Source of the DNA: Haloplanus sp. HW8-1
GTDB taxonomy: Archaea > Halobacteriota > Halobacteria > Halobacteriales > Haloferacaceae
Reading direction: 5' to 3'
DNA length: 64,000 bases
NCBI RefSeq assembly: GCF_023703795.1
Contig: NZ_CP098518.1
Span: forward strand, 1,922,001-1,986,000
Each line of letters opens with the position of its first letter. Within the stretch, counting starts at the first letter, position 1. The notes beneath the pieces were generated by a model that saw only the letters and a list, made by a program, of their open reading frames with translations, was not told where the DNA came from and searched no databases. The position numbers and the translations under genes are program-made. Shown piece by piece: positions 44,445 through 62,822 of this stretch.

Positions 44445-46331
44445 ATGAGCACGAACCGAACCGGTGCGATACTGATCACAGTCGTATTACTGGTGTCGGC
44501 GGTGGCGCCAGCGACGGTAGCCGCACAGACGGACACGTTGTCGATCGACGTCACGCAGGACGACGAGACGGGCGTCGCGACGGTCTCCGTCGCCAGCAAC
44601 GGGACAGCAGTCGAGAACGCGACGGTAAACGTGACCAGCGACGAGAACGCGACGTACGCCGGAGTCGGCGAGTACGAGACGGACGCGAACGGGACGGTCA
44701 CGCTCCCAGAACCGTCGGCGTCGGTGACGGTGACGATCGAAGCGACTGCCGACGACACGAACGCGTCGACGACCGTCACGCTCGATCCGGCACTTGACGT
44801 CGTCGTCGAGGAGGCCGACGACGGCTCGGCCGTCGTGACGGTGACGCGCGGGAACGACACGGTGGAGAACGCGACGGTGAACGTGACCACCGACGAGAAC
44901 GTGACGTACGCGGGGACGGGCGAGTACGAGACGGACGCGAACGGAACGGTCACGCTCCCCGACCCGTCGGCGTCGGTGACGGTGACGGTCGAAGCGACGG
45001 CCGATGGTGACGGGGCGACGACCACGGTCACGCTCGATCCGGCGCTCGACGTCGCCGTGGAGGGAGCCGACGACGGCTCGGTCGTCGTGACGGTCACACG
45101 CGGGAACGACACGGTAGAGAACGCGACGGTGAACGTGACGGCGAACACGACCTACGTCGACACCGGCGAGTACGAGACGGACGCGAACGGGACGGTCACG
45201 CTCGCCAATCCCGACGAGACGACCGAACTGACCATCACGGCCACGGAGGGCGGTGACGAGACGACGACCTCGGTGATCGTCGAACCCGTGCAGACGCTCG
45301 GAGTGGGCGTCGAACAGGCCACGGACGGCACGGTGACCGTATCCGTCGGTCGACTCGGCGACCCCGTCACGAACGCGACGGTCGAGGTGACGGCCCTCGA
45401 CGACGGCACGTACGCCGGTGCTGGCGAGTACGAGACGGACGAGAGTGGAACGGTCGTCCTCCCCGCACCCGCCGAGAACGTCACGGTGGAGGTGACCGCC
45501 GCCGACGGGAACGACACGGCGACGACGACGGCAGAGCTGACGGTTCCGGAGCCGGTCGGGCCGTTCGGTCAGGTCGTTGCCGCGTTCGTCGACGCGCTGA
45601 AGGGGTCGGGCTTCAGCGGCCCGCTCGGACAGCAGGTCTCGGAGTTCGTGACGAACAACAACCCGTCGAACGCCGACCAGCGCGGCCCGCCCGCCGACGC
45701 GGATCCGGACGACGCGGATGACGGAAACGACACCGAGGGGGACGGCAACCAGTCCCGGATCGTTCCGGCCGGACCGCCGACCGAGCAGCCGGGTAACGCG
45801 GACGAGGCACCGGGGCAGTCCGACGGCGGCGAGGACGGCCCGGGTAACGCGGGCGATGCACCGGGGCGATCCGAGGAGCCCGAAGACGACGAAACTGAGG
45901 AGACTGACGACGAGACCGACGAGGACAAGCCGGGTAACGCGGACGAGGCACCGGGCCGGTCCGACGAACCCGAAGACGAAGCGGAAGACGAGGGCGAGAA
46001 CGAAGCAGAAGACGAAGACGAAGCAGAAGACGAAGACGAAGCAGAAGACGAGGGCGAGAACGAAGCAGAAGACGAAGACGAAGCAGAAGACGAAGACGAA
46101 GCAGAAGACGAAGACGAAGCAGAAGACGAAGACGAAGCAGAAGACGAAGACGAAGCAGAAGACGAAGACGAAGCAGAAGACGAAGACGAAGCAGAAGACG
46201 AAGACGAAGCAGAAGACGAAGACGAAGCAGAAGACGAAGACGAAGCAGAAGACGAAGCGGACGGCGCCGCTGGCGGCAACGGTAACGGCGGCGGCAACGG
46301 CAATGCCGGCGGCAACGGTAACGGCCGATAA
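44445..46331 (+). CDS. Secreted surface protein with Ig-like repeats and acidic tandem-repeat tail
   Basis: The 628-residue protein has a Sec-type signal (MSTNRTGAILITVVLLVSAV, cleavage near VAAQ). Four tandem beta-sandwich-like repeats of about 80-90 residues follow, each with an ENATVNVT-like strand, a GEYETDANGTVTLP turn and a long Thr/Val strand. Many Asn-x-Thr/Ser sites (NAT, NVT, NGT) suggest heavy N-glycosylation. After residue 375 come a short linker, a PGNADEAPG motif repeated with variation, the EDEDEA tract, and a GGNGNGGG tail. No membrane anchor or archaeosortase motif is seen at the end, so it is probably released or held by the tail. Function unknown; a cell-surface or matrix role is inferred. 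Confidence 0.82.
   Translation: MSTNRTGAILITVVLLVSAVAPATVAAQTDTLSIDVTQDDETGVATVSVASNGTAVENATVNVTSDENATYAGVGEYETDANGTVTLPEPSASVTVTIEATADDTNASTTVTLDPALDVVVEEADDGSAVVTVTRGNDTVENATVNVTTDENVTYAGTGEYETDANGTVTLPDPSASVTVTVEATADGDGATTTVTLDPALDVAVEGADDGSVVVTVTRGNDTVENATVNVTANTTYVDTGEYETDANGTVTLANPDETTELTITATEGGDETTTSVIVEPVQTLGVGVEQATDGTVTVSVGRLGDPVTNATVEVTALDDGTYAGAGEYETDESGTVVLPAPAENVTVEVTAADGNDTATTTAELTVPEPVGPFGQVVAAFVDALKGSGFSGPLGQQVSEFVTNNNPSNADQRGPPADADPDDADDGNDTEGDGNQSRIVPAGPPTEQPGNADEAPGQSDGGEDGPGNAGDAPGRSEEPEDDETEETDDETDEDKPGNADEAPGRSDEPEDEAEDEGENEAEDEDEAEDEDEAEDEGENEAEDEDEAEDEDEAEDEDEAEDEDEAEDEDEAEDEDEAEDEDEAEDEDEAEDEDEAEDEDEAEDEADGAAGGNGNGGGNGNAGGNGNGR
46068..46247 (+). repeat. 18-bp tandem repeat coding EDEDEA, ten copies
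   Basis: The unit gaagacgaagacgaagca is repeated ten times without visible change, in frame within the secreted protein. Earlier variant units, including two EDEGENEA forms, occupy 45978-46067. The near-identity of copies points to recent expansion by slippage or recombination, and copy number is probably variable. Confidence 0.92.
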
Positions 46332-49068: not shown

Positions 49069-49248
49069 ATGGCGACCGACGAGTTCCCCGCAACCCGTCA
49101 CCGTCCAGTGGTCCCGTCCGGCGACGCCGCGCGTGCCGTTCCCGAGTCGATACGAGGAGTGACCGGTCCCCATTGCGGTGACCCCGGACCCACGCAGGCG
49201 GCGCTCGGCGGGGGGAGACCCGGAGGACACGTTGGGGTCACTCGATGA
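49069..49248 (+). CDS. Possible small leaderless ORF coupled to a binding protein
   Basis: A 59-codon frame starts MATDEFPATRHRPVVPSGDA. A TATA-like aattttatcaat sits about 25-35 bases upstream, so transcription could begin near the ATG. Its TGA overlaps the ATG of the binding-protein gene (ATGA at 49245-49248). The sequence is Gly/Pro/Arg-rich with one Cys and matches no family I know. It may be a translated leader that couples expression of the next gene, or a chance frame. This and the rest of the 338-base gap 48907-49244 hold no other gene. Confidence 0.35.
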   Translation: MATDEFPATRHRPVVPSGDAARAVPESIRGVTGPHCGDPGPTQAALGGGRPGGHVGVTR

Positions 49249-50213
49249 CCGAGACGGTTACCTTCCAGTTGAACTGGGAACCGAACGGGTTTCAGGCGCC
49301 CTACTTCCTCGCACGCCGGGAGGGATTCTATGCCGACGAAGGCCTCGACGTGGAGTTCGTCGAGGGTCACGGCTCGCCCTTCGCTGCCGAACGGACCGCC
49401 AACGGCCGGAGCGACCTCGGTCTCGCCGGCGGGAGCGCCGTCCTCTCGGTGCGGAGTCAGGGGCTCGACCCGCTCGCCGTCGCCGCGGTGAGCCAGAAAA
49501 CGCCGGCGACCATCTACACCCTGCGGGACGTCTTCGGCGAACCGCTCACCGACCCCGAACAGCTCCGAGGGCGGACGGTCGGTCCGTCGGCGACCAAGAC
49601 CCGGATTCTAGCGCTCCAGTTGCTCGAGGACCGGGGGATTCGGGATGCGGTCGAGGTCCACGACGTCCAGAAACACACCCACCACCGCGTCGAACACCAG
49701 TTGCTCGACGGCGACATCGACGCCGCTGTGGGCGTCGTCACCAACGGCAAGGAACTCGAACGCGAGTACGGTCGGACGGCGGACGAACTCCTCGTCGGCA
49801 ACTACCTCGACGTGTACGGGATGACGGTCGTCACCAACCCCGACTTCGCCGACGCCAACCCCGAGACGGTTCGCTCGTTCCTGCGTGCGACCGCTCGGGG
49901 GTGGGGGGCGGCGACGGACGACCCCGACCGCGCCATCGACGCGCTGATCGCTCGGAACGCCCAACTCGAACACAACCGCGAGATCGAGCACATGAAGTTC
50001 CTCGCCTCCGCGGAGGACCTCCAGTTCACGGAGTTCGTCCGCGAGGCGGGGTGGGGTCATTTCGATGCGGAACGGTGGACGAACCTGGCCGGGATGCTCG
50101 CGGAGACGGACCTGCTGGAGTCGCCCGTCGATCCCGACGAGGCGTGGACGAACGAGTACGTCGACGACGCCGACCCGGTGATCGCGAACTACGCCGAGCG
50201 GATCGGTCGTTAG
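49245..50213 (+). CDS. NMT1/THI5-like substrate-binding protein lacking an export signal
   Basis: The 322-residue protein starts directly in the mature-type fold: VTFQLNWEPNGFQAPYFLAR, then EGFYADEGLDVEFVEG. It shows the two-lobe periplasmic-binding pattern through EPLTDPEQLRGRTVGPSATK and ends WTNEYVDDADPVIANY. Related proteins carry ABC-importer ligands such as pyrimidine thiamine precursors, riboflavin, nitrate or sulfonates. No signal peptide or lipobox is present and no permease is adjacent. It therefore acts inside the cell or depends on a mis-called start; no upstream in-frame signal is seen. It also resembles the two other binding proteins at 58106 and 61710. Confidence 0.8.
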   Translation: MTETVTFQLNWEPNGFQAPYFLARREGFYADEGLDVEFVEGHGSPFAAERTANGRSDLGLAGGSAVLSVRSQGLDPLAVAAVSQKTPATIYTLRDVFGEPLTDPEQLRGRTVGPSATKTRILALQLLEDRGIRDAVEVHDVQKHTHHRVEHQLLDGDIDAAVGVVTNGKELEREYGRTADELLVGNYLDVYGMTVVTNPDFADANPETVRSFLRATARGWGAATDDPDRAIDALIARNAQLEHNREIEHMKFLASAEDLQFTEFVREAGWGHFDAERWTNLAGMLAETDLLESPVDPDEAWTNEYVDDADPVIANYAERIGR

Positions 50214-50952: not shown

Positions 50953-53079
50953 ATGTCATCCGAATCAAGCGGTGAATCGGACGGGGCGACCAAGACCATC
51001 TGCCCGTACTGTGGGGTGGGCTGTGGCATCAAGATCGCACAGGACGACGACGGGGAGGTCACGTTCCGTCCGTGGGGCGACGCACCGGTCAACGAGGGAA
51101 GCATCTGCATCAAGGGCGGGGCGGCCACCCAGTCGGTCAACCACGAAGACCGGTTGACCGATCCGCTGGTCCGTGGCGAGGACGGCGAATTCCACGAGGC
51201 GACGTGGGACGAGGCCTACGATCTGATCGTCGACGAGATGGAGCACATCCGCGACGACTACAGCGCCCAGGCCATGGGCTTCTATGGCTGTTCGAAGGCG
51301 ATGAACGAGGAGAACTACCTCATCCAGAAACTCGCCCGCCGTTACGGCACCAACAGCGTGGACACGTGTACGCGGATGTGCCACTCCTCGACGGTGTACG
51401 CGCTCAAAAACAGCCTCGGCGAGGGCGCGATGACCAACAGCATGGAGGACTTAGAGGAGGCAGCCGACGTGTTCTGGATTCAGGGTGCCAACCCCGGCGA
51501 GCAACACCCAATCGCCAACAGCCAGTACTTCCGGCAGGCCGTTCTGGAAGGTGCGACGGTCATCCAGGTGGATCCCCACGCCAACAAGACGACGCGGTCG
51601 TTCGAGATCGACGAGACCGACCGGCATATGCACCTCCAGCTCGAACCCGGGACGGACATTCCCCTGCTCAACGTCGTCATCAAGACGATCCTCGAAAACG
51701 ACTGGATCGACGAGGAGTTCATCGCGGAGCGCACCGAGGGCTTCGAGCACCTCCAAGAGACCTTGGAGGACTTCGACAAGGAGGCGGCCGCCGAAGAGTG
51801 TGGCGTCCCCCTCGAGGACATCGAACTCGCCGCCGAGAAGTACGCGATGGCGAACAACGCCGCCATCTTCACCGGCATGGGGATGAGCCAGCACACCTGC
51901 GGCGTCGACAACGTCCAAAACGAGATCAACCTCGCCTTGATCACCGGCAACCTCGGCCGTCCGGGAACCGGTGTCAACCCGCTCCGTGGCCAGAACAACG
52001 TTCAGGGTGCCTCGGACGTCGGGGCGATGCCGAACGTCCTCCCCGGGTACCGGGACGTCTCCGACCCCGAGGTCCGAGCCGACGTCGAGGAGGTTTGGGA
52101 CTTCGAGATTCCGTCCGAACCCGGGCTGACGAACGTCGAACTCTCCCATGAGATCGGTAAGACGGTTCACGGCCTCTACATCATGGGTGAGAACCCCGTG
52201 ATGAGCGAACCCGACACCAACGAGGTCGAGAAGCGCCTCGAAGAACTCGACTTCATGGTGGTCCAAGACATCTACAAGACCGAGACTGCCGAGTACGCCG
52301 ACGTGATCCTGCCGGCCACCTCGTGGGCGGAACGCGACGGCACGGTCGTCAACACCGACCGCCGCACCCAGCGGATGCGCGGCGTCGAGAAGGTCCACCC
52401 GAACACGAAAGACGACCTCGAGATCCTGTGTGACGTCGGCAGCCGCCTGTTCGGCGACGGCAGTTTCGACTTCGACGGTCCCGAAGAAGTCTTCGAAGAA
52501 CTCCGGCAGGTCGCACCCATCTTCCACGGCATGACCTACGATGTCCTCGGCGAGGAGGGCGTCCACTGGCCCTGTTACGAGCCCGGCGACGAGGGCGACC
52601 CGTTCCTCTACGAGGACGGATTCACTACCGAGAGCGGTAACGGCCAGATCGAGGGCGTCCGCCACCAGCCGCCGAAGGAGACTCCCGACGAGGAGTACCC
52701 GCTGATCCTCACCACGGGCCGGATCATCGAACACTACAACACGGGGACGATGAGCCGCCGTTCCGAGACGCTCAACCGCGTCGAACCCGAGAACTTCGTC
52801 GACGTCCACCCGAACGACGCCGACCACTACGGGATCGAGGACGGCGACTACGTGACGCTCAAATCCCGGCGCGGCGAAATCGAGGTGGAAGCCCGCGTCA
52901 CCGAGGACATCAAGGAGGGAACCGTCTGGACGACGCCACACTTCGCGGACGCCGCGGGGAACCGCCTCACGAACGACGTCCTCGACGAGCGCGCAAAGAT
53001 CCCCGAGTACAAGGCCGCAGCCGCCGAAATAGAGGTCACTGTCGATACGGACGACGCCGACGCCCCGGCCGACGACTAA
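50953..53079 (+). CDS. fdhA: Formate dehydrogenase alpha subunit, molybdopterin oxidoreductase
   Basis: The 708-residue protein has one N-terminal [4Fe-4S] motif CPYCGVGCGIKIAQ near residue 17 and the molybdopterin domains. The active-site region is NSVDTCTRMCHSSTVYALKN, with Cys in the Sec/Cys position, followed by WIQGANPGEQHPIANSQYF and MGMSQHTCGVDNVQNEINLA. The C-terminal binding domain ends ILTTGRIIEHYNTGTMSRRS. This is the FdhA/FdhF pattern. It lacks a Tat signal, so it is cytoplasmic, and has no beta, gamma or FdhD gene beside it. Electrons would go to an unlinked ferredoxin or NAD(P) module. Confidence 0.93.
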   Translation: MSSESSGESDGATKTICPYCGVGCGIKIAQDDDGEVTFRPWGDAPVNEGSICIKGGAATQSVNHEDRLTDPLVRGEDGEFHEATWDEAYDLIVDEMEHIRDDYSAQAMGFYGCSKAMNEENYLIQKLARRYGTNSVDTCTRMCHSSTVYALKNSLGEGAMTNSMEDLEEAADVFWIQGANPGEQHPIANSQYFRQAVLEGATVIQVDPHANKTTRSFEIDETDRHMHLQLEPGTDIPLLNVVIKTILENDWIDEEFIAERTEGFEHLQETLEDFDKEAAAEECGVPLEDIELAAEKYAMANNAAIFTGMGMSQHTCGVDNVQNEINLALITGNLGRPGTGVNPLRGQNNVQGASDVGAMPNVLPGYRDVSDPEVRADVEEVWDFEIPSEPGLTNVELSHEIGKTVHGLYIMGENPVMSEPDTNEVEKRLEELDFMVVQDIYKTETAEYADVILPATSWAERDGTVVNTDRRTQRMRGVEKVHPNTKDDLEILCDVGSRLFGDGSFDFDGPEEVFEELRQVAPIFHGMTYDVLGEEGVHWPCYEPGDEGDPFLYEDGFTTESGNGQIEGVRHQPPKETPDEEYPLILTTGRIIEHYNTGTMSRRSETLNRVEPENFVDVHPNDADHYGIEDGDYVTLKSRRGEIEVEARVTEDIKEGTVWTTPHFADAAGNRLTNDVLDERAKIPEYKAAAAEIEVTVDTDDADAPADD

Positions 53080-53898: not shown

Positions 53899-54537
53899 CT
53901 ACTCGTCGCCGTTGTGCCGCAGTGCGCCGTACGCACCCGCACCGATCGCGGTCAGCGCCGCACCGACGCCGAAGCCGGGGCCGCCGCCGTTGGTCTCTCC
54001 ATCGCCACCGTCACCGCCGTCGCCGCCGTCGCCGCCGTCGCCGCCGTCGCCGCCGTCGCCCATCGGCGTGTCAGTCGCCGTGGCGGTCCCGCCACCGCCG
54101 TCGCCGCCGTCACCCATGTCGCCGCCGGTGACGTCGAACTCGCCCCCTTCGCCCATGTGCTCCTCGCAGAAGTACTCCGACAGGCTGGCGGTCGCCTGGA
54201 AGTTCACGGTTCGGGTCCGCCCCGTCTCGAACACGTACTCACCCCGTCTGACGACACCGTCTTCGGACGTGATCACGAGGTTGTGTCGTGCCGGCAGTCC
54301 CTCGCTCTCGGGGTTGTAACTGTTGGTCCACTGGATAGCGTACCGGTTGCCCGCTTCGACTTCCAGCGTCGGGTTGGTCGTCCCCGCGATGCTCGATGGA
54401 GCACGGCCGACGAAGCCTTCTTGGGTCAGTTCGAGTTCGAACGTCGTCTCGACCTGTGCCGTCGCCGATCCCACCGCCCCGGCCAATCCCGCGGTCGTTG
54501 CTGCAGCGCCGATCAGGAACATTCTTCGCGTCGCCAT
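53899..54537 (-). CDS. Secreted cupredoxin-like protein with PGF-CTERM anchor
   Basis: The 212-residue protein starts MATRRMFLIGAAATTAGLAG, a Tat-type leader. A cupredoxin-like beta barrel of about 105 residues follows with candidate copper ligands in LPARHNLVITSEDG and SEYFCEEHMGEGGEF (His, Cys, His, Met). Then come a GDGGDGG low-complexity linker and a GPGFGVGAALTAIGAG PGF-CTERM helix with terminal basic residues for archaeosortase anchoring. It lies directly downstream of the PQQ dehydrogenase on the same strand with a 116-base gap, so it could accept electrons from it. Ligand assignment is from pattern only. Confidence 0.8.
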   Translation of the reverse strand: MATRRMFLIGAAATTAGLAGAVGSATAQVETTFELELTQEGFVGRAPSSIAGTTNPTLEVEAGNRYAIQWTNSYNPESEGLPARHNLVITSEDGVVRRGEYVFETGRTRTVNFQATASLSEYFCEEHMGEGGEFDVTGGDMGDGGDGGGGTATATDTPMGDGGDGGDGGDGGDGGDGGDGETNGGGPGFGVGAALTAIGAGAYGALRHNGDE

Positions 54538-54653: not shown

Positions 54654-56381
54654 CTACTCTTCGCTGAGGCCGAAGACGGCGATGGTGGAGCCACGACGGC
54701 CGCCGTGGAGCCAGCCGGAGCCGCCGACTTGGACCGCGACGTACTGCTTGCCCTCGCCGGGGTCGTACCAACTGGACAGTGAGGAGCAGATCGGTGCGCC
54801 GAGCTGGAACTGCCAGAGACGGTCACCGCTCTCGCCGTCGTAGGCGACGAGGTTGCCGTTCTGGGTGCCGGCGAACATGAGGCCGGTCGCGGTCGTGATC
54901 GACCCGCCCCAGAGGTAGTCGCTGGTCGTGTCCGAGGAGATCCAGTCGCGCCAGACACGCTCGCCGCTGACCGGATCGACGGCGACGATGGCGCTGAGGT
55001 TCCCGTTCCAGTTGGACGGCTCGCTGACGTCGGGCCAGTCGTTGAGGCCGCCACCCCAGTAGGTTTGGCCGGCCTCGTACTCCGCCTCTTCCCAGAAGAT
55101 TTCGTGGGGGGCGTTGTTCTGGTTCATATACATCAGTCCCGTCGCGTGGCTGTACGACGGGGGCTGCCAGTCGTTCCCGCCGTGAGCACCGGGCACGAAG
55201 GAGACCCGACGGTCCTCGTCGGTGTGTGGAACCATCTTCCACATGTTGATGTGTTGGGTCGTCTCCTGGGACCGCTCGAGGAGCCGCCCGTTCTCGGCGT
55301 CCATGGTGTAGACCCAGGCGGTCTTGCCGGGGCTGAGGACGACGTCGCGGGTCTCGTCACCCATCTCCATGTCGTTGACACGGATCTTGGTCGCCGAGGA
55401 GTCGTAGTCCCACACGTCGTGGGGGCTCTCGCCGTAGTGCCACTGGATGGAGCCGTCGTCGGCGCTGAGCGTCAGCGTCCCGATGGTGTAGCGGTTCGGA
55501 CCCGGACGGACCGTCCCGTCGAAGTCCGGACCGGGGTTCCCGACCGGCGCGTGGATCATACCGCTGTCGGGGTCGATGGTCGGTGTCATCCACACGGTCC
55601 CGGCACCGTGTTCGTGGGAGTCGCCAGCCCACTCCTCGGGTGGCGTCGTGTTGGTCCGCCACATCTCGTCCCCGCTCTCGGGGTCGAGGGCCGCGACGAA
55701 CCCGGTGACGCCGTACTCGCCGCCGGCGGACCCCGTGATGACCTGTTCGTCGTAGACGACGGGCGCCCACGTGGCGGAGTAGCCGATCTCGTGGTCGCCG
55801 GTCGAGGTGTACCACGCCTCCTCCCCGGTGTAGCGGTCGAGCGCCACGACGCCGGAGTCGAGCGTCGTCATGTAGACCTTGTCGCCGTAGACGGCGAACC
55901 CACGGTTGTTCGCGTCACAGCAGAGCAGGAGGCCCTGCGGGTTCGCGTACGTGTAACTCCAGAGGGTCTCGCCGGTTCTGGCGTTGATGGCCTTCGCGTG
56001 GTTCGGCCCGTTGGTCTGGTACATGACCGGCGGATCGCCCGGAACGACGATCGGAACCCCCTCCATGCTGGAGGCGACGCCGCTCTGTACCATATACTCC
56101 ATCTCGAGGTCGTCGACGTTGTCCGGCGTGATGACGTCGGCCGACGTGTAGCGCTGTTGCTGGTAGTTCCCCCCGTACATCAGCCAGCTCGTCGGATCGT
56201 CGACCGCCGAGCTGTCGAGCATCTCCTGGGTGACGTCTTTCTGGGGGATCTGCTCGACGTTGAACTGGTGGGTGATCGACTCGTCGGGTAGGTTCGTCAG
56301 CGTGTACCCGTCTTCGACCGCCACCATCTCGATGTTCTGTGCCGCCTGTGCCGCCTTGTCTACTTCGTGAGTGCTAGCCAT
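54654..56381 (-). CDS. PQQ-dependent alcohol dehydrogenase with lanthanide-type Asp-Tyr-Asp motif
   Basis: The 575-residue protein is an eight-bladed beta propeller with tryptophan-docking motifs (ARTGETLW, RYTGEEAW, PESGDEMW, PVSGERVW and others). It has the vicinal disulfide Cys154-Cys155 (LLCCDANNRG) that covers PQQ. Metal-site residues are Glu222 in GGEYGVTG, Asn282 in VGNPGP, catalytic Asp325 and Asp327 in PHDVWDYDSS. An Asp two residues after the catalytic Asp is the mark of rare-earth enzymes (XoxF, PedH); calcium enzymes have Ala or Ser there. It starts MASTHEVDKAAQ with no signal peptide, three bases after the stop of a Tat-signal protein. It is probably a methanol or short-alcohol dehydrogenase; the substrate is not proven. 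Confidence 0.9.
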   Translation of the reverse strand: MASTHEVDKAAQAAQNIEMVAVEDGYTLTNLPDESITHQFNVEQIPQKDVTQEMLDSSAVDDPTSWLMYGGNYQQQRYTSADVITPDNVDDLEMEYMVQSGVASSMEGVPIVVPGDPPVMYQTNGPNHAKAINARTGETLWSYTYANPQGLLLCCDANNRGFAVYGDKVYMTTLDSGVVALDRYTGEEAWYTSTGDHEIGYSATWAPVVYDEQVITGSAGGEYGVTGFVAALDPESGDEMWRTNTTPPEEWAGDSHEHGAGTVWMTPTIDPDSGMIHAPVGNPGPDFDGTVRPGPNRYTIGTLTLSADDGSIQWHYGESPHDVWDYDSSATKIRVNDMEMGDETRDVVLSPGKTAWVYTMDAENGRLLERSQETTQHINMWKMVPHTDEDRRVSFVPGAHGGNDWQPPSYSHATGLMYMNQNNAPHEIFWEEAEYEAGQTYWGGGLNDWPDVSEPSNWNGNLSAIVAVDPVSGERVWRDWISSDTTSDYLWGGSITTATGLMFAGTQNGNLVAYDGESGDRLWQFQLGAPICSSLSSWYDPGEGKQYVAVQVGGSGWLHGGRRGSTIAVFGLSEE

Positions 56382-56384
56382 GCG

Positions 56385-57302
56385 TTACGCACCTCCCGTG
56401 CGCGGGGCGCGCATTTCGTCCGTGATGCGCATCACGTCGTTCGTCAGGTCCTCCTGTCCGACGACCATCATCGCCGCGCCGGCGGACAGCGCAGCGGTGA
56501 GCTGTGCGTCGCCGAGTTCCCGAGCGCCGGCGAGGTCCTCGGCGGCGTTGGCCAACAGATGTAGTCCGGCGTACATCTGCTTGAGGTCCCCGTAGTTGTT
56601 GTCGAGGATGGTCTCCGTCAGGAGCACCTCGTTCTGCCAGAGATACGTATCCAGATAGTCCGTCCACAGCAGGACGCCGGCCGCCGCTCGCTGGTGGAGC
56701 GGGGCGACGTTCGCCGGATCGAACCCCTCGACGCCGGCCGGAATGTCCTTCGTCGGCACCCACATGGCCAGTCGTTCCTTGTTGTTGACGACGTTGACCA
56801 TCGTCGACGTCAGTTCCGCTTCGGTGTACCCGATTTCGAGGAGCGCCGACGCGAGCGGTGCCGTGTTGATGAGTTCGCGTGCCGTGGCACCGATATGCTC
56901 GGGTGTGAACGCCGGCAGGTTCTCTTCGACGCTCTCGAAGAAGCCGACCTCGACGAGATGCTCGTGGATCGCCCAGCCGGGTTCGGCGAGCTCCTGATAC
57001 GCCGTACTGTCCTCGGCCGGGACGCCCATCGCACGGAGTTCGTCCAGTTGTGCGATCTGTTCTTCGAGGCCTGCGAGTTCACTGCTCAGGAGACCCGCGT
57101 CCAGCTCTCCGGTCAGGTCGTCGCTGATGGCCTCGCCCATCGCGGCGAGTTCCCCCGCCGTCTCCCCTTCTACTTCTCCCCTGAGTTCGCTCAGGGTGAA
57201 CTCACTACCTGCTGCCACTGCGCCGGTCAACCCGACGACCTTGAGGAACTGACGCCGGTCCTCTCGGTCGATCTGGGGCATTCCGTTTACATGTTGCGAC
57301 AT
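56385..57302 (-). CDS. Tat-signal helical partner protein of the PQQ dehydrogenase
   Basis: The 305-residue protein starts MSQHVNGMPQIDREDRRQFL and continues KVVGLTGAVAAGS, a twin-arginine leader. The mature part is almost wholly helical with a charged coiled region near residues 60-95 (LSSELAGLEEQIAQLDELRA), then LINTAPLASALLEIGY and AGVLLWTDYLDTYLWQNEVL. No known domain is recognised. It lies upstream of, and three bases from, the signal-less PQQ dehydrogenase in the same operon. That suggests it exports or holds the enzyme as a complex through the Tat pore, like the signal-bearing subunits of gluconate 2-dehydrogenase and similar oxidoreductases. Confidence 0.75.
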   Translation of the reverse strand: MSQHVNGMPQIDREDRRQFLKVVGLTGAVAAGSEFTLSELRGEVEGETAGELAAMGEAISDDLTGELDAGLLSSELAGLEEQIAQLDELRAMGVPAEDSTAYQELAEPGWAIHEHLVEVGFFESVEENLPAFTPEHIGATARELINTAPLASALLEIGYTEAELTSTMVNVVNNKERLAMWVPTKDIPAGVEGFDPANVAPLHQRAAAGVLLWTDYLDTYLWQNEVLLTETILDNNYGDLKQMYAGLHLLANAAEDLAGARELGDAQLTAALSAGAAMMVVGQEDLTNDVMRITDEMRAPRTGGA

Positions 57303-57466: not shown

Positions 57467-57997
57467 TTATCGAACGGTAAGGTGGCCGATCATGTCGTTG
57501 TTCACGTGCAAGATGCAGACGTACGTGTAGTCACCCGTGGTGTCGAACGTGTGCGTGTACGTTGCCCCCTGCGGGTTGATCCCCTGGGGGTTCCCCTCTG
57601 GATGGCTGCCGAACGGTTCCGCTCCTTCGGGGAGCGAGACGTCCGAGTGGTGTGACGGATGAGCACAGATGTTGTGGCCTCCCGATTTGAACTCCCATCT
57701 GACCGTATCACCCGCAGATATACGAACCCGTTCCGGGACGTAGTCGAAGTAACTCCCATCCGGACCGACTTCGATAACGGCGTCCGCCTCCTCTGTGGGA
57801 GTCGACGTGGGGGTCGTCGTCGCCGTGGCTGTCGCCGTCGGCTCCGGCGTGTCGGTCGCCGTCGCCTCCCCACCGTCGCCGCCGTCACCGCCACCGCTAC
57901 CGCCGGAACAGCCGGCGAATCCGGCGAGAACGGCACTACTGAAGGTGGCTGCGAACTTCCGTCGCGACAGGAACTCCTTTGGCTGTTTTGAGACCAT
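57467..57997 (-). CDS. Halocyanin-like blue copper lipoprotein
   Basis: The 176-residue protein starts MVSKQPKEFLSRRKFAATFS and ends its leader at FAGC, a Tat lipobox signal. After a Ser/Thr/Pro-rich linker comes a plastocyanin fold with copper ligands His in KSGGHNICAHPS and Cys, His, Met in YTYVCILHVNNDMIGHLTV. It would carry electrons on the outer face of the membrane. A TATA-like ggtttattag lies 20-30 bases before the ATG. It sits upstream of the PQQ operon on the same strand and could be its electron acceptor. The in-frame extension upstream of this ATG is discarded. Confidence 0.9.
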   Translation of the reverse strand: MVSKQPKEFLSRRKFAATFSSAVLAGFAGCSGGSGGGDGGDGGEATATDTPEPTATATATTTPTSTPTEEADAVIEVGPDGSYFDYVPERVRISAGDTVRWEFKSGGHNICAHPSHHSDVSLPEGAEPFGSHPEGNPQGINPQGATYTHTFDTTGDYTYVCILHVNNDMIGHLTVR

Positions 57998-58105
57998 CGA
58001 ATCGAAGTTCGGTTTGCATCTAATAAACCTGATGAAGTCCCGGCAGTCACTCCCACACACGACCGACCGTGTTCGCGACGTCACCCGTTCGCCTGCAGTT
58101 TATAT

Positions 58106-59383
58106 ATGGCGCGGGACCAAGTGGCCACCGTGCGAGTTCGAGAGTTTCCGGTCCTCGGCGACGAGGACGAACGGGCGGTCGAGACGTTCGCCGTGGGGCT
58201 CGACCGCGAGGCCGCGCGCGTACTCGCCTACCTAGTCGGTCGCGAGGACTCCGACCGCTTCTCCGGGGAGGCCGCGTCGCGGTTGGCCGTCCGCGTCGGT
58301 GTCGACCTCGGTCGGGGTCGGGTCTCCGACGTGCTCGCGACGCTCACCGACCACGGCCTGGTCACCGAGACGACCGTCGAGAGCGAGGCACCGGGCCGCC
58401 CCCCCAAGGGGTGGCGGGCCGACGCCGGTCACGACCGAACGGCTTCCCGCGTACGCGCCCTCCACTCGGAGGCGTTGCTCGACCGGGCGGCGACGGTCGC
58501 TGCGACCCTCGACGACGACCTCGACGTGGACGCTGGGCCCCTCACCGACGACGCCTCACCGATCGAGGTCGGCCTGAACTGGGAGCCGAACGGGCTCCAC
58601 GCACCCCTGTTCGCGGGCACGTACGACGTGGACGTCTCCCTCTCCGGTTGTCGGGGGTCCCGTGCCGCCCTCTCGGCCGTCGCCGATGGCGACGTCGATA
58701 TCGGCCTCACCGGCGCGGCGACGTTTCTCCGTGGGCACGCCGACGGCCACGAGGTGATCCCGCTCGCGCTGTACTACCAGCGGGCGATGGTCGTTCTCTA
58801 CACCACGCGTGGGACGTTCGGCGGCCCGCTCCGGAGCGTCGAGGACGTACGCGGCCGCCGGGTCGCCATGCCCGCCGGCTCCGAAACCGGTGCGCTCGGG
58901 CGCCTCTTCCTGTCACAGGCCGGCGTCGTCGACGACGTGACCGTCGTCCCCGCCGACGGCGAGGAGCGCGAGGCGTTGCTCCGCGGCGACGCCGACGTGG
59001 CGACCGGCGTCTTCACCGACCCGCTGGCACTGGGCGCCGACGGCCACGAGGTGGATTCGGTGCTCGTCGCCGATCACTTCCCGGTACCCGGTCCCGCGCT
59101 CGTCGTCCGCCAGGAGACGCTCCGGGACCGTCCCGCCGCGCTCCGAGCGTTCCTCGAAGGAGCGATGGCCGGCTGGAGCACCGCTCGACTCGACCCCGCG
59201 GCGGCCGTCGACGCCGTCGCCGACCACGGTAGCGAACCGGCCGCGGCCGAACGCCGGAAGCTCACCCAGGCGCTCGATCGTTTCGCGTCCAGCGACGCCG
59301 TCGAGAAGAACGGCTGGGGGTGGCACTCCGCCGAGACGTGGCAGCGACTCCGGGTCGCGCTCGAACAGGCGGACGCACTATGA
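58106..59383 (+). CDS. Winged-helix regulator fused to an NMT1/THI5-like substrate-binding domain
   Basis: The 425-residue protein has an N-terminal winged-helix domain (about residues 30-105: ARVLAYLVGREDSDRFSGEA through DVLATLTDHGLVTETTVESE, then a PGRPPKGWRADAG wing). It continues with a complete two-lobe binding domain starting VGLNWEPNGLHAPLFAG near residue 155 and ending GWGWHSAETWQRLRVALEQA. No signal peptide is present, so it is a cytoplasmic one-component regulator that senses its ligand with a transporter-type binding fold. It overlaps the ATPase gene (ATGA), so it may control its own ABC operon. The TATA-like tttatata right before the ATG leaves open a start at GTG 58121 or 58130. 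Confidence 0.85.
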   Translation: MARDQVATVRVREFPVLGDEDERAVETFAVGLDREAARVLAYLVGREDSDRFSGEAASRLAVRVGVDLGRGRVSDVLATLTDHGLVTETTVESEAPGRPPKGWRADAGHDRTASRVRALHSEALLDRAATVAATLDDDLDVDAGPLTDDASPIEVGLNWEPNGLHAPLFAGTYDVDVSLSGCRGSRAALSAVADGDVDIGLTGAATFLRGHADGHEVIPLALYYQRAMVVLYTTRGTFGGPLRSVEDVRGRRVAMPAGSETGALGRLFLSQAGVVDDVTVVPADGEEREALLRGDADVATGVFTDPLALGADGHEVDSVLVADHFPVPGPALVVRQETLRDRPAALRAFLEGAMAGWSTARLDPAAAVDAVADHGSEPAAAERRKLTQALDRFASSDAVEKNGWGWHSAETWQRLRVALEQADAL

Positions 59384-60147
59384 TCCGCGTAGAGAACCTG
59401 TCGGTTGCCTACGGCGACTTGCGTGCCCTCGCCGACGTCTCGCTCGACGTCGCCGACGGCGAGTTCGTCACGGTCGTCGGGCCGTCAGGCTGTGGCAAGA
59501 CCACCCTGTTGCGGACCATCGGTGGGCTAGAGGAACCGACGACGGGCGAGGTTACCGTCGACGGTGACCCACCCGGCGTCGCTCAGTCCGACGCCCGCCT
59601 CGGGTTCGTCTTCCAGGAGCATACGCTCCTGCCCTGGAAGACGGCCCTCGAGAACGTCACCTTCCTCCGTCGGATGGCGGGCAAGGACCCCGATCCGGCG
59701 GGGGCTCGCGACCTCCTGGCGACGACCGGACTCGACGGGTTCGAGGACGCCCGTCCCGCCGAACTCTCCGGCGGTATGAAACAGCGGGTCGCCATCGCCC
59801 GGGCCATCCATCTCGGCGCCGACGTGTTGCTGATGGACGAGCCGTTCGGCGAACTCGACGAGATCACCCGCGACGAGATGAGCGTCGAGATCCTCCGGCT
59901 CTGGCGCGAGACCCGCAAGACCGTCGTGTTCGTCACCCACAGCGTGCCGGAGGCGGTGTTTCTCGGCGACCGCTGTGTCGTCGTCTCGGGCGCCAGCGAT
60001 CCGGCGGCCGGCGACGACTCGCCCGGACGGATCGTCGCCGAGTTCGAGGTCGACCTTCCGCGTCCCCGCGACGAGTCGGTGTTCGGTTCCGAGGCCTTCG
60101 GCGCGCAGGTCGCCCGGGTTCGTCGGGCGCTTCACGACGACACATGA
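59380..60147 (+). CDS. ABC transporter ATPase (nitrate/taurine/thiamine-precursor type)
   Basis: The 255-residue protein has Walker A VVGPSGCGKTTLLR near residue 35, a Q loop FVFQEHTLLPWKTALENV, signature LSGGMKQRVAIARAI near residue 135, Walker B VLLMDEPFGELDEITR, and the H-loop VTHSVPEAVFLG. The ending fits the SsuB/TauB/ThiZ subfamily that pairs with NMT1-like binding proteins. It overlaps the regulator upstream and the permease downstream, both by ATGA. It probably energises both permeases of this cluster, since the convergent half has no ATPase gene. Confidence 0.93.
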   Translation: MIRVENLSVAYGDLRALADVSLDVADGEFVTVVGPSGCGKTTLLRTIGGLEEPTTGEVTVDGDPPGVAQSDARLGFVFQEHTLLPWKTALENVTFLRRMAGKDPDPAGARDLLATTGLDGFEDARPAELSGGMKQRVAIARAIHLGADVLLMDEPFGELDEITRDEMSVEILRLWRETRKTVVFVTHSVPEAVFLGDRCVVVSGASDPAAGDDSPGRIVAEFEVDLPRPRDESVFGSEAFGAQVARVRRALHDDT

Positions 60148-60899
60148 GCGTCGCCGAACGCGTCCCCTTCCCGGACGTGACACTGCCGGTCGCGGGACTC
60201 GTCGGCGCCGTCGCCTGCTGGTGGGCGATCACGACCTTCTTTGCCATCCCCGCGTTCCTCCTACCGTCGCCCGTCGCCGTCGCCGCCCGCCTCGCCGGCA
60301 ACCCGGAACTCTACCTCACCAACGCCGCCGAGACGCTCCGGAAGGTCCTCGTCGGCGGCGCCGTCGGAGTGGTCGGGGGCTTCTCGCTCGCCCTCGTCGT
60401 CGCCACGGTCCCCCTGCTCAAGCGAGCGATCTACCCCTACCTCGTCGCCGCCCGCGTCCTCCCGAAGATCGCCGTCGCACCGCTGTTTCTCATCTACTTC
60501 GGCGTCGGCTTCGGCACGGCCGTCCTCTTCGTCGCCCTCGTCGTCTTCTTCCCCGTGGTCGTCGGGACGGCGGCCGGCCTCTCGCGGACCCCCGAGGCGC
60601 ACCTCGACTTGCTCCGCTCGGTCGACGCCGATCCCGTCCGCACCTTCCTCGCGGTTCGGCTCCGGCACGCGCTCCCGGACGTCTTCGCGGGGTTGAAACA
60701 GGCGGTCACGCTCGCCGTCGTCGGCGCCGTCGTCGCCGAGTGGATCCTCTCGAACGACGGCCTTGGCTCACTCGTCCTCGTCGCCTCCGAGAACGTGCAG
60801 GTGGACGTGATGCTCGCGGCGCTCGCGGTCCTCCTGCCGATCGGTCTGCTGCTCTACGGCGCCGTGACCCTCTGTCAGCGTGCGGTCGTGTGGCAGTGA
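60144..60899 (+). CDS. ABC transporter permease (SsuC/ThiX-like)
   Basis: The 251-residue protein has about six membrane helices and the coupling loop LLRSVDADPVRTFLAVRLRH that contacts the ATPase (EAA-like region). It opens VAGLVGAVACWWAITTFFAI and contains AARVLPKIAVAPLFLIYFGV. It belongs to the family serving nitrate, sulfonate and pyrimidine uptake. It is fully coupled to the ATPase gene, and its stop faces the stop of the second permease one base apart. Confidence 0.9.
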   Translation: MSVAERVPFPDVTLPVAGLVGAVACWWAITTFFAIPAFLLPSPVAVAARLAGNPELYLTNAAETLRKVLVGGAVGVVGGFSLALVVATVPLLKRAIYPYLVAARVLPKIAVAPLFLIYFGVGFGTAVLFVALVVFFPVVVGTAAGLSRTPEAHLDLLRSVDADPVRTFLAVRLRHALPDVFAGLKQAVTLAVVGAVVAEWILSNDGLGSLVLVASENVQVDVMLAALAVLLPIGLLLYGAVTLCQRAVVWQ

Positions 60900-61709: not shown

Positions 61710-62822
61710 CTAGTCCGCGAACGACCCCACGGACTCGGCGTCGGTGCCGAGGTAGTCGTTGGTCCAGACGGTACTCGGATCGACCCGGCCGCCGAGGGCG
61801 TCGGCGTCCGCGAGGGCGTCGTGGACGACCCGCCAGGGTTCGGCCTCGCTCCAGCCCCAGCCGTGTTCCCTGACGGCGTCGCTCAGCATGAACTCCTCGG
61901 CCATGGTCTCCCACTTCCGTCGCTGCTGGTCGCGTGACTCCGCGAGGACGCCGTTTGCTTCGACGAGCAGGTCGGTCGCCTCGGCGGGCCGCTCGTGAGC
62001 CCACGCGGCTCCGCGGGCGGTCGCCCGCAGGAAGGCCCGGACGGCCTCGGGATTCGAGTCCGCCCAGTCCCGCTTGGCCGCGATCACGTGGCCGTAGGAG
62101 GGAATCGTCTCCGCGACGGGGACGCTGTCGACCGTGTACCCCTGGGCCTCGGCACTGATGGCGTCACCGAAGACCCCACCCGCGGCGTCGACCTTTCCCG
62201 AGAGGAGTTGCTGGACCGTGTCGTAGCCCGTATCGACCATCTCCACGTCCTCCCGAACGCCCGCTTCCTCCAAGAGTAGCGATGTGAGCCTCCGAACCAT
62301 CCCGGGACCGGTACCCACCGTCCTGCCGGCGAGTTGTTCGACGTCCGTCAGTTCCCCGCCGAAGGTCTCCCGGGTCGAGAACACCACCGCTGGACTCTTC
62401 TGCATCACGACACTCACCGACTGCGGCGAGAGCCCCCGACTGTTGATGTTCAACACCTGATCGCTACTGGTGACCGCGAAGTCGACGTTGCCGAGGCCGA
62501 CCTGCTTCGCCGAGAACGTCGATCCCTCGCCGGTTTCGATCGAACCGAGCGTCAGTCCCTCCTCCTCGTAGAACCCCTTTGCCTTCGCGGTGAAGTACGG
62601 CACGTGGAGGCCGCTCGGCTTCCAGTTGAGGAGCAGCGACGACTCGTCCGGAATCGGCGTTCCCGTGGCGGTGCCGGTCGGCGTGTCCGTGTCGGTCGGC
62701 GCCTCCGTGTCGGTCCCGTTGCCCCCACCGCCGTTCGTTCCGCCGAGACACCCCGCGAGTCCCGTCGTTCCCGCCGCCCCCGCCGCGACGAGAAAGGACC
62801 GTCTCGTCGGTGTCGATTGCAT
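61710..62822 (-). CDS. NMT1/THI5-like substrate-binding lipoprotein
   Basis: The 370-residue protein starts MQSTPTRRSFLVAAGAAGTT and ends its leader in GLAGC, a Tat lipobox signal. An acidic Thr/Gly linker is followed by the fold SSLLLNWKPSGLHVPYFTAK, KGFYEEEGLTLGSIETGEGS and later KVDAAGGVFGDAISAEAQGY. It is the extracellular ligand receptor of the ABC system and is anchored in the membrane. The binding core resembles the regulator domain at 58106 and the soluble protein at 49245. A TATA-like tttttatac lies about 25-30 bases before the ATG. Confidence 0.92.
   Translation of the reverse strand: MQSTPTRRSFLVAAGAAGTTGLAGCLGGTNGGGGNGTDTEAPTDTDTPTGTATGTPIPDESSLLLNWKPSGLHVPYFTAKAKGFYEEEGLTLGSIETGEGSTFSAKQVGLGNVDFAVTSSDQVLNINSRGLSPQSVSVVMQKSPAVVFSTRETFGGELTDVEQLAGRTVGTGPGMVRRLTSLLLEEAGVREDVEMVDTGYDTVQQLLSGKVDAAGGVFGDAISAEAQGYTVDSVPVAETIPSYGHVIAAKRDWADSNPEAVRAFLRATARGAAWAHERPAEATDLLVEANGVLAESRDQQRRKWETMAEEFMLSDAVREHGWGWSEAEPWRVVHDALADADALGGRVDPSTVWTNDYLGTDAESVGSFAD

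Follow-up and report, generated by a model that had tools for sequence, protein, structure and literature searches.

In a window of 64,000 nucleotides from the genome of Haloplanus sp. HW8-1, a gene encoding a quinoprotein alcohol dehydrogenase was identified that, judged from its residues, possesses a lanthanide-type metal site composed of Glu222, Asn282, Asp325 and Asp327. The enzyme belongs to a clade of quinoprotein dehydrogenases that is haloarchaeal and separate from XoxF. The initial annotation had read it as a XoxF-type lanthanide enzyme. The lanthanide part of this reading stood, with all four ligand positions present and the additional Asp invariant in the clade, but membership in XoxF agreed neither with the tree nor with the pocket. 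The features are listed in Table 1.

Table 1. Features of the dehydrogenase region in the window and of the cupredoxin fusions, the latter numbered within their own loci
Feature	Coordinates	Strand	Basis or remark
Quinoprotein (PQQ-type) alcohol dehydrogenase, 575 aa, without signal peptide	54654..56381	-	ORF, Pfam, PDB matches
PHDVWDYDSS motif, residues 320-329	55395..55424	-	Alignment
Catalytic Asp325, codon	55407-55409	-	In PHDVWDYDSS motif
Lanthanide-type Asp327, codon	55401-55403	-	In PHDVWDYDSS motif
Glu222, predicted metal ligand	55716..55718	-	Same column as Glu of PedH/XoxF/MxaF/ExaA
Asn282, predicted metal ligand	55536..55538	-	Invariant, 84/84
Cys154-Cys155 vicinal pair, PQQ pocket	55917..55922	-	Kept in 64/84 haloarchaeal homologues
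Lys353, replaces Arg of XoxF/MxaF/PedH/ExaA	55323..55325	-	No exception in 84 haloarchaeal sequences
Helical partner protein of 305 aa, uncharacterised, N-terminus Tat-like (DRRQFLK)	56385..57302	-	Directly upstream of dehydrogenase
Halocyanin-like blue-copper lipoprotein (Tat motif and lipobox), upstream	57467..57997	-	Pfam, NCBIfam
Cupredoxin-like protein, Tat signal, PGF-CTERM-like end, directly downstream	53899..54537	-	Pfam only weak
Formate dehydrogenase alpha subunit	50953..53079	+	TIGR01591, 748 bits, over cut-off
HTH-like and NMT1/SsuA substrate-binding-domain protein	58106..59383	+	Divergent from dehydrogenase operon
ABC importer ATPase, SsuA/TauA/NMT1 kind	59320-60147	+	
ABC importer permease, SsuA/TauA/NMT1 kind	60144-60899	+	
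Tat-signal NMT1-type substrate-binding lipoprotein	61710..62822	-	
Cupredoxin-dehydrogenase fusion, L092	2252-4345		One paralogue clade
Cupredoxin-dehydrogenase fusion, L094	2607-4703	-	One paralogue clade
Cupredoxin-dehydrogenase fusion, L095	2321-4423		One paralogue clade
Cupredoxin-dehydrogenase fusion, L096	2229-4331		One paralogue clade

Metal site, fold and clade of the dehydrogenase

Translation of the open reading frame, which starts with ATG, placed the motif, the four ligands and the Cys pair exactly at the residue numbers given by the initial annotation. Further residues of the PQQ pocket were retained as well, so that E107, CC, R160, T204, S218, W264, W491 and GW at 556-557 were all present. 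Asp327 had been assigned to the lanthanide-ligand column, and it did align without gaps with the Asp that binds the lanthanide in PedH and XoxF. The block reads SPHDVWDYD here, TPHDGWDFD in PedH and TPHDEWDYD in XoxF, whereas the calcium enzymes end, as had been expected of them, in Ser (TPNDAWDFS, ExaA) or Ala (TPHDEWDYA, MxaF 1lrw). The XoxF from pSymB of S. meliloti, used as a reference, also has Asp in this column. Because this column is occupied by Asp and not by Ala or Ser, the reading as a plain MxaF/ExaA-type calcium enzyme was rejected.

The alignment used to evaluate conservation comprised 84 homologues from haloarchaea, 13 encoded on bacterial plasmids and four structural references. 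All 84 haloarchaeal homologues, the most distant of them at about 35% identity, had Asp at 327, whereas the residues after it varied (Ser, Ala, Thr, Gly or Val at 328; Ser, Ala, Val, Ile, Pro, His and others at 329), which indicates that this Asp is not a matter of chance. Asp325, Asn282 and Trp264 were likewise invariant in these sequences, and position 222 was Glu in 76 of them. In the clade that has kept the Cys pair, 64 of 64 sequences agreed in the catalytic Asp, the metal ligands, the pair itself, Arg160, Thr204 and Trp264, and the positions examined were almost uniform altogether.

That the Asp in question coordinates the lanthanide in XoxF and PedH has been demonstrated by mutation or structure work (reviewed in PMC11845868, PMC11996626), and the additional Asp is treated as diagnostic of enzymes that use lanthanides at least facultatively (PMC11996626, PMC11845868). 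The m-GDH of E. coli also carries DxD but has been described as functional with Ca, Mg, Zn and Sr, and lanthanide use is only predicted for it (PMC11996626). Because m-GDH possesses the motif without proven lanthanide dependence, DxD is a strong but not a conclusive indication of a lanthanide. Use of a rare earth by the haloarchaeal dehydrogenase would be more probable than not.

The eight-bladed quinoprotein fold was recovered by Pfam (PQQ beta-propeller, E 8e-53) and by an AlphaFold2 model. The top NCBIfam match was TIGR03075 (PQQ_enz_alc_DH, methanol/ethanol PQQ dehydrogenases) with 385 bits, below the curated cut-off of 480; a weaker match was to TIGR04528 with 282 bits, below the cut-off of 650. 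In a phmmer search against PDB, PedH (6zcv/6zcw) and XoxF (6dam) came out on top. The model, built from 16 window and locus sequences, reached a mean pLDDT of 74 and a pTM of 0.82, with the N-terminal 60 residues largely folded and a confidence of only about 60 at residues 321-330. It was closest to PedH 6zcw (Z 38.9, rmsd 2.5, 481 residues), with calcium and quinohaemoprotein relatives close behind at Z 35-38, so the fold cannot discriminate the metal.

In a maximum-likelihood tree, a branch with support 100/99 separated the 30 representative sequences from haloarchaea, without exception, from XoxF, MxaF, PedH, ExaA and every bacterial sequence; this tree tests the split and not the fine placement, since its references were taken from PDB alignments and lack short unaligned linkers, its root is arbitrary and its bacterial sequences are a small, plasmid-derived sample. 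In the clade tests, the dehydrogenase was neither nested in XoxF/MxaF nor grouped with PedH/ExaA. The pocket differed as well. Besides Lys353, which stands for an Arg of the catalytic site, position 404 was Asp or Glu instead of the conserved Asn in all 64 sequences of the Cys-pair clade, with Asp404 in the Haloplanus enzyme, and Pro285, three residues after the Asn ligand, took the place of the Thr of XoxF, as does a Pro in PedH. Gly221 in front of the Glu ligand agrees with XoxF, of which Gly instead of Ala at this site is a feature (PMC11845868). On the tree and the pocket residues, the XoxF label was rejected. The neighbourhood contained genes for blue-copper proteins, and a Pfam scan of flanking ORFs revealed no cytochrome c (XoxG).

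PedH/ExaF, the lanthanide-dependent ethanol dehydrogenase, was the nearest PDB match by sequence and by fold. It shares the Glu/Asn/Asp/Asp ligands, the Gly before Glu and the Pro after Asn with the Haloplanus enzyme, at about 33% identity over the structural alignment, but the two belong to separate clades. Unlike PedH, the Haloplanus enzyme has Lys for Arg and Asp for Asn, has no signal peptide, is accompanied by blue copper in place of cytochrome c, and PQQ genes were not found for it. The lanthanide-dependent methanol dehydrogenase XoxF (6dam, 4mae) shares DYD, the Cys pair, Glu107 and the ligand set, but differs in clade, in the Thr after the Asn ligand, in the residue at position 353 and in its cytochrome c, which was not found adjoining here. 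Archaeal DYD quinoproteins are not unprecedented. In marine HMT Thaumarchaeota, 4 of 21 quinoproteins have DYD, and blue copper was proposed as a possible acceptor (PMC7300363). All of these quinoproteins are without the Cys pair, which the Haloplanus enzyme possesses; PQQ synthase is encoded, and many carry signal peptides or membrane helices (PMC7300363). No report on haloarchaeal lanthanide enzymes was found in the open-access literature.

Partner gene, possible export and proposed coupling to blue copper

A gene for a helical partner protein directly upstream of a dehydrogenase without a signal peptide, often with a Tat motif on the partner, is a new observation. In the window, the stop codon of the partner gene is located 3 bases ahead of the dehydrogenase start, and the N-terminus of the partner matched the NCBIfam model TAT_signal_seq with 18.0 bits, over the cut-off of 16.7. 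By coordinates, the partner was directly upstream at 91 of 100 haloarchaeal dehydrogenase ORFs, some of whose loci overlap, and this included paralogues at 35-40% identity; at several of the nine remaining loci, where the ORF had been called in the wrong frame, it was recovered upstream by tblastn. Among plasmid records, it occurred in haloarchaea only. Pfam found no domain apart from the signal. The protein was predicted to be all-helical (pLDDT 87), and the fold search against PDB returned nothing at E <= 0.001, with a top Z of 5.8 that is too weak for naming a fold.

The partner with its Tat signal, the adjacent gene and the cargo without a signal together form the layout of a Tat hitchhiker, and for Haloplanus the export of the dehydrogenase on its partner would be a good reading of this gene order. 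An RRxFL-like motif was present on the partner in 36 loci, including every readable cupredoxin-fusion locus. In 55 of 91 loci, from Natrinema, Natrialba, Halomarina and relatives, the motif was degenerate and the hydrophobic stretch lost, which means that Tat co-export is not a general rule.

The dehydrogenase is flanked by two genes for blue-copper-like proteins (Table 1). The halocyanin-like ORF extends to position 58084, and its true start is probably an internal Met. Also new is a clade of paralogues in which a cupredoxin is fused to the dehydrogenase. In L092, L094, L095 and L096, the dehydrogenase ORF carries at its N-terminus a cupredoxin domain whose ligands are His, Cys, His and Met; the Pfam Copper-bind model was over its cut-off in L092 (25.6 bits) and just under it in L094 (19.4). 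These fusion proteins have no signal peptide either, and a partner with an RR motif is encoded upstream of the fusion in L092, L094 and L095. The dehydrogenase of the window is not fused to a cupredoxin. The fusion is nevertheless the best evidence that this family may pass electrons to blue copper, and it offers a concrete example of an alcohol dehydrogenase wired to such a protein. Quinohaemoprotein alcohol dehydrogenases (1kb0, 1kv9), which are close to the Haloplanus enzyme in fold (Z 37-38), follow the same logic with a fused cytochrome c as acceptor.

Supply of PQQ and the possible readings

Known PQQ synthesis is absent from the Halobacteria that carry the dehydrogenase, which is again a new observation. 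None of 391 Halobacteria genomes contained PqqC (TIGR02111) over the cut-off, the single match being at noise level (E 7e-4, 19 bits), while pSymB of S. meliloti as positive control gave 428 bits. PqqD was missing from the host genome and from three other genomes with the dehydrogenase, and was found in the control. The search for PqqE was uninformative, with nothing over the cut-off and a model that matches many radical-SAM proteins, including all 14 controls. No PQQ synthesis genes were thus found in the host genome as a source of the cofactor; these are not strictly required if PQQ is scavenged, as is often the case in bacteria without PQQ synthesis (PMC12124388). Alternatively, there may be a divergent or different PQQ pathway in Halobacteria. 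The missing synthesis is the chief problem for the reading as a rare-earth quinoprotein. In a class in which 69 of 391 genomes carry the dehydrogenase, the absence of PqqC makes the question of PQQ supply directly testable.

The reading preferred here is a quinoprotein dehydrogenase outside the cytoplasm that has a lanthanide-type site, works with scavenged PQQ, delivers electrons to blue copper and is probably exported by its Tat partner; we would give this combination an even chance. An alcohol would be oxidised outside the cytoplasmic membrane by the eight-bladed enzyme, its proton going to Asp325 and its hydride to PQQ. A trivalent rare-earth ion, for which calcium may substitute, would anchor the PQQ in the pocket, and, since the genome is without known PQQ synthesis, this cofactor would be taken up from the environment. 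The electrons would exit singly to the halocyanin and the cupredoxin encoded alongside, and not to a cytochrome c, and the dehydrogenase without its own signal would probably leave the cell on the Tat-tagged partner. Should a rare earth prove to be the metal, lanthanide enzymology would reach a second, culturable archaeal group and hypersaline habitats. Besides the lack of PqqC in the 391 genomes and of PqqD in four, the pocket changes from Arg to Lys and from Asn to Asp, which set the enzyme apart from all four reference enzymes, would speak against this reading.

A PQQ dehydrogenase with DxD may also use Ca2+ or Mg2+ in the cell, with Asp327 inherited from an ancestor and allowing a lanthanide without making it necessary. 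This is a possible case, although we consider it the less probable one. The motif occurs on both sides of the tree, in haloarchaea and in bacterial clades, and is therefore probably the ancestral state, which is also compatible with an ancestral lanthanide-type site and derived calcium types. Brines are rich in calcium, and the example of m-GDH indicates that DxD can be combined with other metals, but the Asp has been kept in every one of the 84 haloarchaeal sequences and is the very residue that coordinates the lanthanide in XoxF and PedH. Rather improbable is a quinoprotein fold without any use of PQQ, be it an empty propeller that serves some other role or a protein with a different quinone or cofactor. 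The lack of PqqC and PqqD in the genome, with the positive control found, would agree with it, as would the existence of empty quinoprotein families and the match to TIGR04528, which was nevertheless weaker than that to TIGR03075. In some haloarchaeal paralogues, moreover, the Cys pair, Glu222 or the Trp of the pocket is no longer present, but the uniform catalytic, ligand and pocket residues in the 64 sequences of the clade of the Haloplanus enzyme, together with the scavenging of PQQ by many bacteria without its synthesis, argue against this reading. A true XoxF methanol dehydrogenase of bacterial origin would explain the lanthanide ligand set, Gly221 and the adjoining formate dehydrogenase gene, but is very improbable given the branch that separates the clade from XoxF/MxaF, the deviating residues at 353, 404 and 285, and flanking ORFs without cytochrome c among those scanned. 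As a wider and rather speculative idea, which we regard as unlikely in its entirety, haloarchaea could have a lanthanide quinoprotein respiration of their own, with a separate clade of enzymes, export on the unrelated helical partner, coupling or even fusion to blue copper, and PQQ or another quinone delivered by a further route, perhaps through the linked NMT1-type ABC importer.

Distribution, paralogues and further neighbours

Matches to the dehydrogenase at E <= 1e-40 were found in about one sixth of the 391 Halobacteria genomes, distributed over 20 of 86 genera. The Haloplanus genome contains a single full copy, with 87-93% identity between the window and genomes of the same genus (89% for named Haloplanus records), and several other genomes have two or three paralogues. 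A search of a phage collection gave only distant glucose-dehydrogenase matches, and a promoter scan gave no useful result. The more distant haloarchaeal paralogues have lost the Cys pair. L082, L083, L087, L016, L134 and relatives have kept DYD while losing the Cys pair, Glu107 and other pocket residues, and their cofactor or function may have changed. On a Halomarina plasmid (L078) and a Natrinema plasmid (L134), genes for a Na+/Ca2+ antiporter, an amphi-Trp protein and a winged-helix/ArsR regulator are located near the dehydrogenase and its partner. L078 also contains two dehydrogenase-partner pairs, an aldehyde ferredoxin oxidoreductase, a hydrolase of the metallo-beta-lactamase fold and three substrate-binding-like proteins without an obvious transporter.

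A formate dehydrogenase alpha gene is located near the dehydrogenase in several genera, which hints at an oxidation of C1 compounds. An ABC importer of the NMT1/SsuA type, encoded divergently from the operon, is a conserved neighbour of the dehydrogenase in loci of Haloplanus, Natronococcus, Natronorubrum and Haloterrigena, and PQQ, the substrate of the dehydrogenase or something unrelated are candidates for its cargo. In the product of 58106-59383, the NMT1/SsuA domain is fused behind the HTH-like N-terminus and a signal peptide is missing; this protein resembles a regulator that senses a ligand more than a component of a transporter. Another NMT1/THI5-type protein of 322 aa, encoded at 49245-50213, has no signal peptide and is therefore probably cytoplasmic. 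The region from 44445 to 46331 encodes a secreted-looking protein with a long acidic tail of EDEDEAED repeats.
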